The translations under genes were made by a program, and so were the position numbers. A stretch of DNA of 60,915 nt from Candidatus Blautia stercoravium. GTDB taxonomy: Bacteria > Bacillota > Clostridia > Lachnospirales > Lachnospiraceae. Location of the stretch: contig DXFK01000198.1 in the NCBI GenBank assembly GCA_019114495.1, positions 1 to 60,915 of the forward strand, in the 5' to 3' direction. Shown in pieces: positions 18,556-26,461 of this stretch. Position 1 is the first letter of the stretch; each line of letters starts with the position of its first letter. The notes beneath the pieces were generated by a model. The model did not search any database and had not been told where the DNA came from. It worked only from the letters and a program-made list of their open reading frames with translations.

Positions 18556-19227
18556 ATGAAGATTTTAATTGTAGAAGATGACTTAACACTGGCCGGAGAA
18601 ATCTGCAGACTTTGTGAGAGATGGGGCTTTGAGGCCCTGTATCTGGAAGAATTTCAGGAAGTGGATAAGCAGTGCCAAAAAAGTGGGTGTGACCTGGTAC
18701 TCATGGATATTAACCTTCCATATTATGACGGATTTTACTGGTGCAGCAAAATCCGTAGCTTTTCCAGAGTTCCCATTCTGTTTCTGTCCAGTCGGGATCA
18801 GAATGCAGACAAGGTCATGGCTATGGTGTCCGGGGGAGATGATTATGTGGAGAAGCCTTTTGATACGGAACTTTTGCTGGTGAAAATCCGTGCGCTTCTT
18901 CGGAGAACGTATGAATATACCCAGGCAGACCGGGAATATCTGAGAGAAGATCTGGTGTATGACAGGAATCAGGGAGTTTTGCTTTACAAGGGCAGGATGA
19001 TTGAGATGACGAAATCGGAGAACAGGATTCTGGGTATTCTGGCAGAAAACAAGGGGCGTGTGGTGGAACGGGAAGAACTGATGCAGCATTTGTGGAGTAC
19101 AGATGAATATGTAACAGATGCTTCCTTGACAGTTCTGGTATCCAGGCTCAGGGCGAAAATTGCCGAGAGCGCAGACGGAATTTCCTGTATCCATACCAGA
19201 AAGGGAAAGGGGTATTATCTGGAATGA
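18556..19227 (+). CDS. BceR-type response regulator
   Basis: MKILIVEDDLTLAGEICRLCERWGFE, LVLMDINLPYYDGFYWCSKIR, RKGKGYYLE. Confidence 0.94.
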   Translation: MKILIVEDDLTLAGEICRLCERWGFEALYLEEFQEVDKQCQKSGCDLVLMDINLPYYDGFYWCSKIRSFSRVPILFLSSRDQNADKVMAMVSGGDDYVEKPFDTELLLVKIRALLRRTYEYTQADREYLREDLVYDRNQGVLLYKGRMIEMTKSENRILGILAENKGRVVEREELMQHLWSTDEYVTDASLTVLVSRLRAKIAESADGISCIHTRKGKGYYLE

Positions 19228-20219
19228 AAGCGTATTTTCGCCACAGAGCAGAGGCCTTTCTGATTGTTGCAGGACTCTGGGGATTTGTAAACGGCTATCT
19301 TATTTTCTTGTGTGTTCCTGCTTTGCAGGGAGAGGATATTGTGTATCTGAATCTGCTGGTTTGTTTTTGGGGAGTGTTTGGTCTTGTACGGGATTATCAG
19401 AAATGGAGGCAGCTGAAAAAATATTTTCAGAATCCGGAGGCATTTTTGGCAGAGGAGGAAAAGAAAATACTGGGAGAGGAACTGTATGGGTATGTCTGCA
19501 GAATACAGGAGGAGCATCAACAAGAGGCAGGAGAATACACCAGGTGTCTGGGTGAGCTTTCGGATTATATTGCACGCTGGTCTCATGAGGCCAAGCTGCC
19601 TTTGACCTCCTTAAAACTTATGAATCAGAGAAATCAGGATGCAGGGCTGAAAAGAGATATGCAGGACTGCATTATGCGGCTGGAAGGGCTGATTCATACC
19701 GTGCTCACGGGAAGCAAGCTGCAGCAGCCCCAGCATGATGTGCGTATGGAAAAGCTTACACTGGAAAGCGTGGTAAAGGAGGCTGTGAAAAATCAGTCTT
19801 ATTTCCTGATTCAGTATCAGTTTGAGCTGGAACTGGATTTGCAGGGAATTTCGGTATATAGTGACAGACGGTGGCTGGTTTATTTGTTGGACCAGTTAAT
19901 TGGAAACGCAGTGAAATACAGGAAAGACGGGCCAAAACTTTCTTTTCGTGCAAAAAGGGAAGAAAAAGGTGTGACCTTTACGGTGGAAGATAAGGGAATC
20001 GGTATTTCTGCAGAAGATTTGCCTTATATTTTTGAAAAAGGGTATGTAGGAAAAATACTCAGAAAGGGAGACTATCATTCTACCGGAATGGGGCTTGCTT
20101 TTGCAAAAAGCATTGCACAGTTGCTCTGCATTTCCATAGAGGTTTCATCCAGGGAAGGGGAGGGAACCTGTTTTTCTCTATATTTTCAGGATACTTCCGA
20201 CCATCTGCTGCTGTCTTAA
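19224..20219 (+). CDS. BceS-type intramembrane-sensing histidine kinase
   Basis: Short N-terminal 2-TM region; WSHEAKLPLTSLKLM H-box; GIGISAEDLPYIFEKGYVG. Confidence 0.92.
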   Translation: MKAYFRHRAEAFLIVAGLWGFVNGYLIFLCVPALQGEDIVYLNLLVCFWGVFGLVRDYQKWRQLKKYFQNPEAFLAEEEKKILGEELYGYVCRIQEEHQQEAGEYTRCLGELSDYIARWSHEAKLPLTSLKLMNQRNQDAGLKRDMQDCIMRLEGLIHTVLTGSKLQQPQHDVRMEKLTLESVVKEAVKNQSYFLIQYQFELELDLQGISVYSDRRWLVYLLDQLIGNAVKYRKDGPKLSFRAKREEKGVTFTVEDKGIGISAEDLPYIFEKGYVGKILRKGDYHSTGMGLAFAKSIAQLLCISIEVSSREGEGTCFSLYFQDTSDHLLLS

Positions 20220-20337
20220 GCAACGAGAAGCGTGTTTCTAACAAAAATGAAATCCTGGAAAGAAAAGTGTTGCCGGAATGAAAGGATTTTTGGAATCCTG
20301 TCTGTTAAGATAAAAACAGACAGGGAGGTAATAGAAA

Positions 20338-21093
20338 ATGAATAAAATATTGGAAATCAGAAATCTGTATAAGAATTATGGACGAAAGGGATATGAGACA
20401 CCTGTGCTGCAGGACATCAGCATGGATATTTTTGAAGGTGATTTCATTGCCATTATGGGTCCCAGCGGCGCAGGGAAAACCACGCTTTTAAATCTTTTGT
20501 CCACACTGGATAAGCCCACAAAGGGAGAAATTCTTCTGGAAGGAAAGGACATTACAAAATTGTCCAACAAGCAGCTTTCCCTTATCCGAAGAGATAAAAT
20601 CGGTTTTATCTTTCAGGAGTATAATCTGCTGGATAATATGACTTTGCAGGATAATATTGCGCTGCCTTTGTCTTTAAACGGGGCAAAAAGCGGAGAAATT
20701 ATCCGGAAGGTACAGCAGAGAGCATGCGCCTTTGGATTGGAAAGTCATCTGCGGAAATATCCCTATCAGCTGTCTGGCGGTCAGAAGCAGAGAGCGGCCA
20801 GCGCCAGAGCTTTGATTACGGAACCCCGGATTCTGTTTGCGGACGAGCCAACCGGAGCCTTGGATTCTAAATCCAGCCGGGATTTGTTGTGCTGTCTGAA
20901 GGCAGCTAACGAGGAAGAGAAAGCTACGATTTTAATGGTTACTCATGACGGCTATACAGCCAGCTATGCCAGACAGGTGTATTTCCACAAAGACGGAAAA
21001 ATTCACAGCCGCTTAAACCACGGGGAAAGCAGAAAGGCGTTTTATGAAGAAATCATGTCTATGCTGGCTGCCATGGGAGGTGAGCAGGAATGA
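20338..21093 (+). CDS. BceA-type ABC transporter ATP-binding protein
   Basis: MGPSGAGKTTLLNLLSTLDKPTKGEI, QLSGGQKQRAASARALI, FADEPTGALDSKSS. Confidence 0.94.
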   Translation: MNKILEIRNLYKNYGRKGYETPVLQDISMDIFEGDFIAIMGPSGAGKTTLLNLLSTLDKPTKGEILLEGKDITKLSNKQLSLIRRDKIGFIFQEYNLLDNMTLQDNIALPLSLNGAKSGEIIRKVQQRACAFGLESHLRKYPYQLSGGQKQRAASARALITEPRILFADEPTGALDSKSSRDLLCCLKAANEEEKATILMVTHDGYTASYARQVYFHKDGKIHSRLNHGESRKAFYEEIMSMLAAMGGEQE

Positions 21094-23024
21094 GTCTTTT
21101 CAAGCTTTCTTTTTCTAACTTTAAGCGAAGTGTAAGAAATTATGGCATGCTCATTGTTTCTCTGGCATTTTCTGTGTTTATCTTTTTTAATTTTCAAAAT
21201 GTGCTGTATTCGGATTCCATGGACGTACTCATGGATTATAAAAAGGATTATATTGATATGATTGTAAAGGCCGCGTCCGTTGTGTTTGCCGTGTTTTTAT
21301 TCTTCTTCATCTGGTATGCGTCCAATGTGTTTTTAAATCAGAGAAAAAAAGAAATCGGTATTTACATTTTTATGGGACTGGATAATCGGCGTATAGGAAA
21401 AATGTATGTGCTGGAAGCTGTATTTATCGGTCTGGTTTCATTGGTTTCGGGAATTGTAACCGGAGTGCTGTTTTCCAAGCTGTTTCAGATGCTGCTTTTG
21501 AAGCTGTCGGATATCAGTGTGAATGTAAAATTTTCTTTCAGTCTTTCGCCGGTACTGGTTACAGCAGCTATGTTTGGCGGTGTATATGGAATGATGACGT
21601 TAAAGAGTTATCACACGCTGGCAACCAGCAGTGTGCTGAATCTGCTTTCCGGTGCAAAGCAGAAGGAAATGCGTTCGGAAAAGGGAATTCTGACTTTTCT
21701 GCGGATTCTGGCAGGCCTGGGATTTCTGGGCGTGGGCTATTATCTGGCCTGGGATACCAATGGCATGCAGGCTCTGACTAACGCTCTGGCAGCGGTAATT
21801 CTGGTAATTGCAGGCGTTTATTTACTATTTTCCGGTCTCATTCCTGCACTTTTGAGAAAGCTGACAGGCAATAAAAAGTATCTGTATAAAAAAGAGAGGA
21901 ATCTTTGGGTGAACAGTCTGGCTTTCCGCATGAAAAAAAATTACAGAACGTATGCCATGGTGACCGTGCTGATGATATGTTCTGTAACTGTGCTGGCTTT
22001 TTCTATTGCTATGAAGCAGCGGTATGAGAAAATTCGTGCCTATGACCGGGTTTATACCTGCCAGGTGGTAAGTGCACAGCCAAAAGACGGAGAAGAAATT
22101 GCCAGAGGTATTGAAAAGGAAAATGAACTGGAATACTGGAATACTTATGAATTGGTAATTCTGGATTCCGAAACCATGCATGCAAAATACAATCAAATTA
22201 TGTACGGTGTGGTATCTTATTCCCAGGTAAAGGCCGCTGCCAAAGCGGCAGGGCTTCCGTTTCCATACAAAGAACTGAAGGACAGCCAGGTGATTGACCT
22301 GGACCACGAAATTCTTATGAGCCTTTTGGGCAGTTCGGACGGAGATGAAAAACAGCAGATAGGAGAGAAAACGTATGATGTTCTTGCCAAGGACAAGACA
22401 CCGTATCTGGGAGTTCTGCAAAGTTCGGCAGACATCTGTGTAGTCAGTGATAAGACTTTTGAAGAGCTGGAGGGGCTTGGAGTGAAAAGCTATTTGTATA
22501 ATTACAGACTGAAAAACCCCGAAAACATAGAAGCGTCAAAGGCTTATATCCAGTCTTTAGCCACACGGGATGAAAACGGCCAGTATACAACCGGTGTAAA
22601 CTATTCCCAGGCACAGTCCAAGCAGGACGGTTGGATTCGGATTATGTATTCTTTGTGTCAGTTTATGTTTGTGACGCTGGTGTTGGCAGCAGGAAGCATT
22701 ATTTTCTTAAAGACGGGCAACGAAGTTTATGAGGACAAAGAGCGGTACCAGATACTGGAAAAAATGGGAATCCAAAGAAGCGTACTGAGAAAATCTGTAC
22801 GCAATGAAATCTGTTTTACCTACTATTGTCCCTTTGTGCTCATGGTGGTCACCTCCTGGTTTTCCATACATGCGCTGGGAAATGTGATGAAGGAAGAACT
22901 GCTGCTGGTGAATCTGTGGAGTGCAGGCATTGTTCTGGTGCTGTTTAGCGGGATTTGTCTGTTGTCCGTGAGGACAGCGAGAAAGAGGCTGTTTTTAGAC
23001 TCAAAAGTTACTGTGCACCTTTAA
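21090..23024 (+). CDS. BceB-type FtsX-like ABC transporter permease
   Basis: 644 aa with ten hydrophobic segments and a large extracytoplasmic domain; follows the BceA-type gene. Confidence 0.92.
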   Translation: MSLFKLSFSNFKRSVRNYGMLIVSLAFSVFIFFNFQNVLYSDSMDVLMDYKKDYIDMIVKAASVVFAVFLFFFIWYASNVFLNQRKKEIGIYIFMGLDNRRIGKMYVLEAVFIGLVSLVSGIVTGVLFSKLFQMLLLKLSDISVNVKFSFSLSPVLVTAAMFGGVYGMMTLKSYHTLATSSVLNLLSGAKQKEMRSEKGILTFLRILAGLGFLGVGYYLAWDTNGMQALTNALAAVILVIAGVYLLFSGLIPALLRKLTGNKKYLYKKERNLWVNSLAFRMKKNYRTYAMVTVLMICSVTVLAFSIAMKQRYEKIRAYDRVYTCQVVSAQPKDGEEIARGIEKENELEYWNTYELVILDSETMHAKYNQIMYGVVSYSQVKAAAKAAGLPFPYKELKDSQVIDLDHEILMSLLGSSDGDEKQQIGEKTYDVLAKDKTPYLGVLQSSADICVVSDKTFEELEGLGVKSYLYNYRLKNPENIEASKAYIQSLATRDENGQYTTGVNYSQAQSKQDGWIRIMYSLCQFMFVTLVLAAGSIIFLKTGNEVYEDKERYQILEKMGIQRSVLRKSVRNEICFTYYCPFVLMVVTSWFSIHALGNVMKEELLLVNLWSAGIVLVLFSGICLLSVRTARKRLFLDSKVTVHL

Positions 23025-23872
23025 TTTTCTGCTCCCACTGATTTCGATGTCCGCAAATCGCGGGGAGTACAGCCGTAAATCTCACGAAAGAGCTTGTGAA
23101 ACAGCTTATAGTTGGTAAATCCGTTCCGGTCAATGATTTCCATAATGGGGTCATTGGTGGTAAGCAATTCAAAATGAATGTGAGAAAGACGAACCAGGTT
23201 TACATGCCTGGAAAAGTTAAGCCCTACATTCTTTTTGAAAAAACGGCAGAAATATTCCCGGTTGAGACCAAAATGAGCAGAAATTTCCTCCAGAGAAATG
23301 TTGTGTCTGTAGTTCTCTTCCACATATAGCAAAATCTCTTTCAGCCGTTCCTGATTTCCGGAGGCAGGGACGGCTTCTGCGGGAATGGAAACAGAGAAAT
23401 TGTTTACCAGTTTAAACAGAATCTGCATGACAATGGCTTCACAGGCCAGGTTCATGGCAGGGGGCTGGGTGATGTAGAGGGGAACCAGCTGCTTGAAAAG
23501 GCCGCAGATTTCCAAAAAGCAGGGAAGGTCTTTGTGGGTAAGGGTTTCTCTGCTGCACACCAGGTGGGGAATGATTCCTTGCTCCATATAGGATTCCAGA
23601 AATGCTCTGGAAATGTGCACACAGATTTCGGTATAAGCAAGAGCACAGCGGGATTCATGTATCTGGTTGGAGTCTGTGACAATAAATTCCCCTGCTACCA
23701 GAGTGTATTTTTTGCCGCTGATGGTGATTTCCGCAGTACCGTTTAGGATGTAGAGCAGTTCAATGGCAGGGTGCCAGTGGGCAGGGAAATAAGAACCACG
23801 GTTTGTCTGATAGCGGATGGAGATATTTTTTCCCTCCAGGTCATCCAGATGTCTGTAAAACGCAGCTTTCAT
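23021..23872 (-). CDS. AraC family transcriptional regulator
   Basis: Cupin (HWHPAIELLYILNGTAEITISGKKYTL) plus AraC HTH (ISLEEISAHFGLNREYFCRFFKKNVGLNFSRHVNLVRL). Confidence 0.92.
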   Translation of the reverse strand: MKAAFYRHLDDLEGKNISIRYQTNRGSYFPAHWHPAIELLYILNGTAEITISGKKYTLVAGEFIVTDSNQIHESRCALAYTEICVHISRAFLESYMEQGIIPHLVCSRETLTHKDLPCFLEICGLFKQLVPLYITQPPAMNLACEAIVMQILFKLVNNFSVSIPAEAVPASGNQERLKEILLYVEENYRHNISLEEISAHFGLNREYFCRFFKKNVGLNFSRHVNLVRLSHIHFELLTTNDPIMEIIDRNGFTNYKLFHKLFREIYGCTPRDLRTSKSVGAEN

Positions 23873-24001
23873 AAAAAACCTCCTTAATGTCAATATTGAC
23901 CAAAAAACAGTCAATATATTATCTAAAATAATTCTATATTCTATGATAACATATGGTTGTAAACAAGGAAAACACTTATTTCAAAAAGAGGAGAAATTAT
24001 T

Positions 24002-24142
24002 ATGAAAAAAACAAATCAGAACAATATAGATACAAAAAAATTAACATTCGGACAGCGCCTGGGAAGATACATTGAGAAAAACGGTAAAGTATTTGCAGCT
24101 ATTGACGCTACATGGACAGGCAGATTTTACGGAAGATACTAA
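24002..24142 (+). CDS. Unannotated 46-aa small protein MKKTNQNNIDTKKLTFGQRLGRYIEKNGKVFAAIDATWTGRFYGRY
   Basis: Manually translated; AAGAGGAGAAATTATT Shine-Dalgarno before ATG; terminator 15-65 nt after the TAA; divergent from an AraC regulator; below the 60-aa cutoff of the ORF track. Confidence 0.7.
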   Translation: MKKTNQNNIDTKKLTFGQRLGRYIEKNGKVFAAIDATWTGRFYGRY

Positions 24143-24156
24143 GAAGTATATAAAAA

Positions 24157-24208
24157 AGAAAAGCCCGCGAAGAAACAGGAAAGACTGCAGCTTCGCGGGC
24201 TTTTTGGA
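24157..24208 (+). terminator. Terminator between the small ORF and ilvN
   Basis: AAAAGCCCGCGAAG...CTTCGCGGGCTTTTT, 14-bp stem; A-tract/T-tract symmetry allows bidirectional use. Confidence 0.9.
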
Positions 24209-24221
24209 ATAGGGAGGAGAA

Positions 24222-24731
24222 TCAGTGTTCCATCATGCTGATGGATTCAATTCCCACGCTTCCGCCCCGTACTACTTCAATATTTTTAAATTCTTCTTTG
24301 AACAGATTGACAACAGCATCATTTTTGGCAGCGGTCTGGACAAATTCCAGAAGCAGACTGTCTTTTCCGCAATCAATGACACGTCCTTTAAAGGTTTCCG
24401 CAATCTGAAACAACTCAATTTTTTCCTCCAGAGAGCAGTCTCTGACTTTCACATAGAGAATTTCCTTCATGCGAATAAAAATATCTGTAAAATCAATGAC
24501 TTTGATAACCTCCACCATGCGGTTTAACTGCTTTTTTATCTGCTCAAAAGTTTCGTCATCACTGACCGTTGCAATGGTCATACGGGAAACGGTGGGGTCT
24601 TCCGTGGTTCCTACAGTAAGACTGTCCAGATTGTAGCATTTTCCGGAGAACAGTCCGGAAATTTTTGAAAGTACACCTATCTGATTTTCTACATAGAGGG
24701 AAATCCATCTTTTTTTCATTCCTTTTTCCAT
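24222..24731 (-). CDS. ilvN: acetolactate synthase small subunit
   Basis: RWISLYVENQIGVLSKISGLFSGKCYNLDSLTVGTTEDPTVSRMTI, ACT domain. Confidence 0.95.
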   Translation of the reverse strand: MEKGMKKRWISLYVENQIGVLSKISGLFSGKCYNLDSLTVGTTEDPTVSRMTIATVSDDETFEQIKKQLNRMVEVIKVIDFTDIFIRMKEILYVKVRDCSLEEKIELFQIAETFKGRVIDCGKDSLLLEFVQTAAKNDAVVNLFKEEFKNIEVVRGGSVGIESISMMEH

Positions 24732-24742
24732 AGTCCTGCCTC

Positions 24743-26461
24743 CTAACAATCCATAATCATATCGGCCAGAGTGCCGCCGGGTTTAATCATCGGGTAAACC
24801 ATTTCCTCCGGGTCGAGGATAAATTCAATCACTGTAGGCGTCTTGGTGTGTGTCTTGGCCCGCTCAAAAGCAGGGGCAATTTCTTCTTTTTTTGTAACAC
24901 GGATACCGTCTGCCCCATAGCTTTGGGCCAGCTTGACAAAATCCGGGGTATAAGGCGGCAGTTCTTCTCCATCTGTGCGGCGGGAGAGAGCGCCAGCCCG
25001 CAGGTTTGTCATAGAATACCGTTTGCCGTAGAACAGCTTCTGCCACTGGCGTACCATGCCCAAATATTCGTTATTGAAAATACAGAGAATAACAGGAAGC
25101 TCTTCCAGCACTGCAGTAGCCAGCTCCTGAATATTCATCTGCATGCCGCCGTCACCGGAAACAGCAATGACAGGAATGTCGGGATTGCCGATTTTTGCGC
25201 CAATGGCGCCGGGAAGTCCATAGCCCATAGTGCCAAGGCCTCCGGACATAATCAGTTTTTTCTTTTCTGTAATCTCTGCGTACTGGGTAACCAGCATCTG
25301 GTGCTGGCCCACGTCTGTTACCAGAATGGCTTTGTCAAACTGACGGTTGATTTCCTGAAGAATATCCAGAGGTCCCATCAGCGCCCGTTTCTTCATGGTA
25401 AGTGGGTGTTCTTCCTGCCATGCGTGAATCTCCTTTAGCCATTTCCCTGTGCTGCAGGGCTCCACATAAGCGTCCATTTTGGTAAGGGCTTCTTTGGCGT
25501 CAGCCACAATGGGAATATCCACGTGGATATTTCTGGAAATAGAAGCGGTATCAATATCAATGTGAACAATCTGCGCATGAGGGGCAAATTCATGAAGCTT
25601 TCCGGTGATACGGTCGTTAAATCGGGTGCCCATGGAAAACAGCAAATCACAGTTATTCACAGCCATATTGGCCGCATAAGCCCCATGCATACCCAGATTT
25701 CCAATAAACAGCGGATGGTTGGTGGAAATTGCGCCTCTGCCCATAATGGTCGTTACCACAGGAACCTGGGTTTTCTCAGCCACTTGGGTGAAAATTTCTC
25801 CGGCTCCTGCAATGTTGACACCGCCCCCTGCCAGAAACAGAGGTTTTTTGGCTTTCTGCAGAAGCTTCAGCGCTTTTTTCAGCTGCCCCATATGGATACT
25901 GGAATTGGGTTTGTATCCCCGAATGTTGACGGTTTTGGGATATTCCGGGCTGCCAAGCTCTGCCATCACGTCTTTTGGCAAGTCAATGAGCACAGGGCCG
26001 GGTCTTCCCGTGCGTGCAATATAGAAGGCTTCTTTGATAATTCGTCCCAGGTCTTCCCGCCTGCGTACGGTGACGCCGTATTTGGTTATGCTGCGGGTAA
26101 TGCCCACAATATCCACCTCCTGAAAAGCGTCGTTTCCAATGAGATGACGTGCCACCTGTCCGGTAAAGCATACGAGAGGTACGCTGTCATAATTGGCTGT
26201 GGCAAGACCTGTCACCAGATTGGTAGCGCCGGGACCGCTGGTCACCAGACAGACCCCAACCTTTCCTGTGGTTCTGGCATAGGCGTCTGCTTCGTGAACC
26301 AGAGCCTGCTCATGCCGGGGAAGTATGACGTCCAGATTGTTCTGTTTGTAAAGCTCGTCGCTGATGTCAATGGTACACGCCCCGGGATAGCCGAATATAA
26401 CGTCCACCCCTTCTTCTTTCAGGGCTTTTACCAATAGCCGGTTTCCTGAAATTTGTTTCAT
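24743..26461 (-). CDS. ilvB: acetolactate synthase large subunit
   Basis: GNRLLVKALKEEGVDVIFGYPGACTIDISDELY...; ThDP-binding GDGGMQMNIQELATA. Confidence 0.97.
   Translation of the reverse strand: MKQISGNRLLVKALKEEGVDVIFGYPGACTIDISDELYKQNNLDVILPRHEQALVHEADAYARTTGKVGVCLVTSGPGATNLVTGLATANYDSVPLVCFTGQVARHLIGNDAFQEVDIVGITRSITKYGVTVRRREDLGRIIKEAFYIARTGRPGPVLIDLPKDVMAELGSPEYPKTVNIRGYKPNSSIHMGQLKKALKLLQKAKKPLFLAGGGVNIAGAGEIFTQVAEKTQVPVVTTIMGRGAISTNHPLFIGNLGMHGAYAANMAVNNCDLLFSMGTRFNDRITGKLHEFAPHAQIVHIDIDTASISRNIHVDIPIVADAKEALTKMDAYVEPCSTGKWLKEIHAWQEEHPLTMKKRALMGPLDILQEINRQFDKAILVTDVGQHQMLVTQYAEITEKKKLIMSGGLGTMGYGLPGAIGAKIGNPDIPVIAVSGDGGMQMNIQELATAVLEELPVILCIFNNEYLGMVRQWQKLFYGKRYSMTNLRAGALSRRTDGEELPPYTPDFVKLAQSYGADGIRVTKKEEIAPAFERAKTHTKTPTVIEFILDPEEMVYPMIKPGGTLADMIMDC

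Follow-up and report, generated by a model that had tools for sequence, protein, structure and literature searches.

We identified, in a stretch of 60,915 nucleotides from Candidatus Blautia stercoravium (hereafter the window), a microprotein gene that is divergent from an araC-type regulator gene and preceded by a composite operator, which we propose as the site of that regulator. With a probability of roughly 0.55, we favor the reading that the AraC sensor activates this lone gene and that its one-helix product is a dedicated output acting by protein binding. In the proposed mechanism, the cupin domain of AraC would bind a small ligand, and AraC would then activate from the operator, which abuts a promoter without a -35 element; the monocistronic target would yield a 46-aa product with one amphipathic helix and flexible ends, which would serve as the sensor's output inside the cell through helix-mediated binding to a cellular target and may also feed back on AraC itself. 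More tentatively, the locus may represent a previously undescribed module of gut Lachnospiraceae in which the whole regulon of an AraC-type small-molecule sensor consists of fast-diverging microproteins that are themselves effectors. Most often, the small proteins of gut bacteria come to light as solitary ORFs that offer no clue to function; this family is accompanied by a regulator of its own and by an operator for which whole genomes can be scanned, so that members too short or too divergent for homology searches can be found by their promoter. The circuit is testable through the ligand that the cupin domain senses and the partner to which the helix binds. Should AraC truly lack other targets, it would be unusual among one-component sensors in serving a microprotein alone. 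The operator, the wider family and the gene copies away from araC are the real content of this analysis and had no place in the original prediction for this DNA. Features of the locus are given in the table.

Features of the microprotein locus and their positions in the window
Feature	Coordinates	Strand	Remarks
araC-type regulator gene, 283 aa, cupin/AraC_binding sensor and HTH_18	23021..23872	-	
Composite operator GTCAATATTGACCAAAAAACAGTCAA, TCAA direct repeats 21 bp apart, proposed AraC site	23889..23914	+	Sole exact match in the window's genome
TATCTA element between operator and -10	23920..23925	+	C and T at operator positions 35-36, 82% each
Proposed extended -10 TGATAACAT of the microprotein promoter	23944..23952	+	Position-wise consensus of 34 operator loci
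Shine-Dalgarno GAGGAG, 8 nt 5′ of ATG	23988..23993	+	AAAGGAGAT or AGGAG kept in homologues
Microprotein gene MKKTNQNNIDTKKLTFGQRLGRYIEKNGKVFAAIDATWTGRFYGRY, 46 aa, ATG to TAA	24002..24142	+	ORF and Shine-Dalgarno; 7 intact homologues in the genus, syntenic and under purifying selection
Bidirectional terminator hairpin common to microprotein gene (+) and ilvN (-)	24158..24205	.	T-run on one side, A-run on the other

The 46-aa ORF is missing from the default ORF list because of its length, and had been predicted from the letters alone as an unlisted small protein gene with a strong ribosome-binding site; both the ORF and its GAGGAG were confirmed. Searching 20 genomes of the genus for the small ORF, we recovered it with 87% identity in G311 (matching Blautia hansenii MSK.15.26), together with six more intact homologues with 40-45% identity (G316, G304, G314, G307, G315 and G300). 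All seven are 46 codons long, follow a strong Shine-Dalgarno and are syntenic, with araC on one flank and ilvN on the other; the proposed homologue and synteny check was positive. An eighth homologue, in G028, is damaged. In three further genomes (G301, G305 and G306), whose AraC orthologue is 47-51% identical, the same place is occupied by a 59-aa ORF that ends in ...ERFINYMIENVDIIAPGIIMMNGGYYVPTKK and can be aligned with the 46-aa protein. The dN/dS (NG86) of the closest pair was 0.21, other pairs lying mostly at 0.03-0.6, with changes concentrated at third positions, so that the suggested selection test also came out well below 1 in most pairs. In a dinucleotide-shuffle control, an ORF with a Shine-Dalgarno followed the operator in 21 of 26 loci, as compared with 1.8% after shuffling. 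Given the intact syntenic homologues in seven congeners together with the decayed one, the dN/dS values and the shuffle control, the sequences indicate that the ORF is a real gene, beyond chance. The anatomy of the locus is read directly from the DNA, whereas its transcription and translation, and the function of the microprotein, are inferences.

The region 24140-24220 folds into a hairpin of -29.8 kcal/mol (z -7.2) with an outer stem of 15 bp. It had been taken for the gene's own terminator; however, it occupies the gap in which the microprotein gene and ilvN (24222-24749, minus strand, ending at 24222) converge, and the A-run upstream and T-run downstream lead us to read it as bidirectional and common to ilvN. 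The acetolactate synthase genes ilvN and ilvB (window 24222-26461) together converge on the microprotein gene and have this terminator in common with it. A short transcript with a strong terminating hairpin might also be expected if the locus were a small RNA or leader peptide with an incidental ORF, but the low dN/dS, the third-position changes and the conserved Shine-Dalgarno make this very improbable. An attenuator or leader peptide was also considered and rejected, as no co-directional gene lies downstream in the window.

The divergence of the gene from araC, and its proposed link to it, were borne out by position and by co-occurrence. The regulator has PF02311, PF07883 and PF12833 all above cut-off, as expected of a cupin-type AraC protein. 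It is present in 12 of the 20 genus genomes, all 12 of which have the small gene or a remnant of it, and the remaining eight have neither a close AraC nor the small gene; every genus genome with a close AraC orthologue (66-96% identity) has the 46-aa gene. In G028, a deletion between two TGTAACAAAGAAA repeats has apparently removed the Shine-Dalgarno and start of the small gene, and only about 108 matched residues remain of the AraC there, from which the DNA-binding half (HTH) is gone. From the sequences, this looks like joint decay of the two genes. Among 80 named AraC loci, 26 have both peptide and operator, 3 and 8 have a single one of the two, and 43 have neither (Fisher 5e-11); some of the loci, though not L091, L098, L099 or the trans copies, had also contributed to the microprotein profile with which they were scanned. 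On the AraC tree, peptide presence was clustered, requiring 14 changes as compared with 25.8 when shuffled, which still implies several gains or losses. Some loci (L080, L100) have the operator at the AraC locus and no detectable peptide, and some AraC genomes (G198, G067) gave no profile match for the microprotein; since operator and peptide were found by pattern and by profile, such absences are soft. Taken together, the sequence comparisons indicate that the microprotein family tracks one subfamily of AraC/cupin regulators. AraC homologues with 42-45% identity from rumen and uncultured Lachnospiraceae (L072-L075) have no operator and no detectable peptide, and in Ruminococcus turbiniformis (L141) a faint trace, SGLMMTSGSGNAYNLYRMMK, close to an incomplete AraC is possibly a decayed pair. 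Just past araC, the window also contains a sensor kinase and an ABC transporter with an FtsX-like permease (a BceAB-like module, 19224-23024), which is not conserved beside other AraC-microprotein pairs.

The operator follows the pattern RTCAATATYGMC-N9-RTCAA. When 34 loci were aligned from the operator start, a C-T box fell at positions 35-36 and a TANNAT (-10) at positions 59-64, and no -35 was recognizable in them. AraC acting on arabinose genes at araI, an AraC/XylS regulator with an AraC_binding/cupin domain, is the familiar example of class II activation. The regulator described here has the same domain make-up as such class II proteins, and TCAA direct repeats 21 bp apart likewise lie by a promoter without a -35; the target there is a sugar or virulence operon, whereas here it is a lone microprotein gene. 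The fixed distance from operator to -10 and the lack of a -35 are the layout of an AraC-activated promoter, which suggests that AraC binds the composite operator and activates from it. Alternatively, AraC could repress from this site, and the operator could serve autoregulation of araC as well. The pattern occurs once in the window's own genome; allowing two mismatches added four sites, with dissimilar spacers and near the level of the reversed-pattern control. As far as the pattern can tell, the microprotein gene is therefore the only recognizable target of this AraC in its own genome.

Scanning 397 Lachnospiraceae genomes for the operator alone gave 12 sites in 9 genomes, and the reversed pattern gave none in the same genomes. 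All nine are among the 18 genomes that hold the AraC (hypergeometric 8e-14, uncorrected for relatedness), and at 9 of the 11 sites that could be evaluated an ORF of the family follows at 111-149 nt from the operator start. The site in G198 leads into an unrelated 70-aa ORF, and that in G136:C59 into none. Several microprotein genes lie elsewhere than divergent from araC. Operator-bearing copies are on contigs other than that of araC in G136 and G192, and G231 has one operator copy in tandem before araC and a second elsewhere. Two copies in G264, both with operator, are not divergent from araC; in G340 there is no divergent neighbor peptide and a microprotein with operator is found in trans; in G370 microprotein and operator are right behind araC; and in G342 the gene is also displaced, with an unreadable upstream region. 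Because the operator is retained even by copies that lie apart from araC, it belongs to the microprotein genes. The G136:C59 site (L170, G136:C59:17030) is an exact operator that precedes a distinct AraC-like gene, a possible case of cross-regulation. Two family members (L152 in G126 and L195 in G339) have neither operator nor adjacent AraC and are possibly under another regulator.

Divergent small ORFs of 28-70 aa, preceded by strong Shine-Dalgarno sequences, accompany AraC homologues of other Lachnospiraceae. They align as one family, in which a variable N-terminus (MSTIAL in many cases) leads into a helix of the form SLxERxxKYLxENxxxIxAGLxxM; this is followed by [NST]G and a short tail, for which [YF][VIL]P or AYxxYRxLKK is common. 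The end of the window protein, which had been described as rich in aromatic residues, Gly and Arg, corresponds to this variable C-terminal segment. The gene is present as three tandem copies in Parablautia muri (L104) and in G107 (L063), every copy having a separate Shine-Dalgarno, and in several other clades dN/dS was mostly below 0.5. Neither the window protein nor any of 38 family members had a credible match in Pfam or NCBIfam, a PDB profile search with the family gave weak partial matches only, a search of phages and plasmids with one member gave no match, and we found no description of the AraC-microprotein pair in Lachnospiraceae in the open-access literature. On this sequence evidence, the microproteins constitute a previously unnamed, fast-evolving family of gut Lachnospiraceae. 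Three loci from outside the genus returned by the first family-wide search with a single peptide (L005-L007, of which L006 was checked) were discarded, as they looked like chance.

The "hydrophobic core" first attributed to the protein is better described as one amphipathic helix, predicted by AlphaFold at residues 16-39 with moderate confidence (pLDDT 72); the microproteins have no long hydrophobic or transmembrane-like stretch. At that confidence, an unstructured secreted peptide would look similar. The product might be exported, either as a signaling peptide that cleavage releases from the conserved C-terminal segment or as an unmodified leaderless antimicrobial peptide. The fast divergence among clades, the tandem copies, the amphipathic helix, and the recurrent [YF][VIL]P or aromatic end after [NST]G would all fit with this. 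However, no signal peptide is visible, no transporter, peptidase or immunity gene is conserved in linkage, and selection within clades is strongly purifying; net charge ranges from -2 to +7, unlike leaderless bacteriocins, which are consistently cationic and have linked immunity or transport genes. We therefore regard export as rather unlikely. A conserved third gene was sought by a Pfam tally of 71 neighbors and rejected, as no family occurred in more than 3; because neighboring genes are not conserved, the unit is the AraC-microprotein pair. This also weakens the suggestion of a RiPP-like precursor. The helix resembles a leader followed by a short variable tail, and two Cys are conserved in the CSGDFH subgroup only; nevertheless, no modification enzyme is conserved in the neighborhoods or present among the 25 families listed from the tally, and no Cys, Ser or Thr core is consistent across the family, so that a precursor modified by an enzyme encoded elsewhere is scarcely plausible.

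The suggestion of a regulatory microprotein still stands as a possibility, and the nearest analogue is provided by the ANR proteins, with Aar of enteroaggregative E. coli as an example: tiny helical proteins that are devoted to an AraC regulator, induced by it and often encoded divergently from it (PMC4038620, PMC5570504). By analogy, the present family may act in a related way: it too pairs an AraC-family regulator with tiny helical proteins of its own, and the members of the family, at 28-70 aa and mostly divergent, are close to the ANR range of 39-80 aa near an AraC gene. The hosts differ, being Gram-negative enterics and Pasteurellaceae for ANR and Bacillota here, and so do the regulators, as those of ANR have wide virulence regulons whereas the operator of this cupin-type AraC is restricted to microprotein genes. 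ANR proteins have three helices and a conserved Cys. Since one helix rather than three is predicted here, and since the ANR model NF033650 had no match in the window's own genome, nor did the 38 family members match ANR in NCBIfam, we did not file the family as ANR. The microprotein could nonetheless be mainly a feedback antagonist, induced by AraC and then binding AraC and shutting it off. The layout is that of ANR proteins, which bind the AraC linker (PMC4038620, PMC5570504), and co-occurrence and co-decay with araC are consistent with it. However, the operator scan gives essentially no targets beyond the microprotein genes, so a pure antagonist would leave a circuit without an output; tandem and scattered extra copies also fit an output better, and NF033650 is unmatched. 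We thus prefer the effector reading and judge the antagonist unlikely. What an effector of this kind might do is illustrated by the small DUF1127 proteins, which have no tie to AraC and to which the present family has no Pfam match; like the microprotein they are under 50 aa and are described as acting by binding a protein, the sensor kinase PhoR (PMC12501420).
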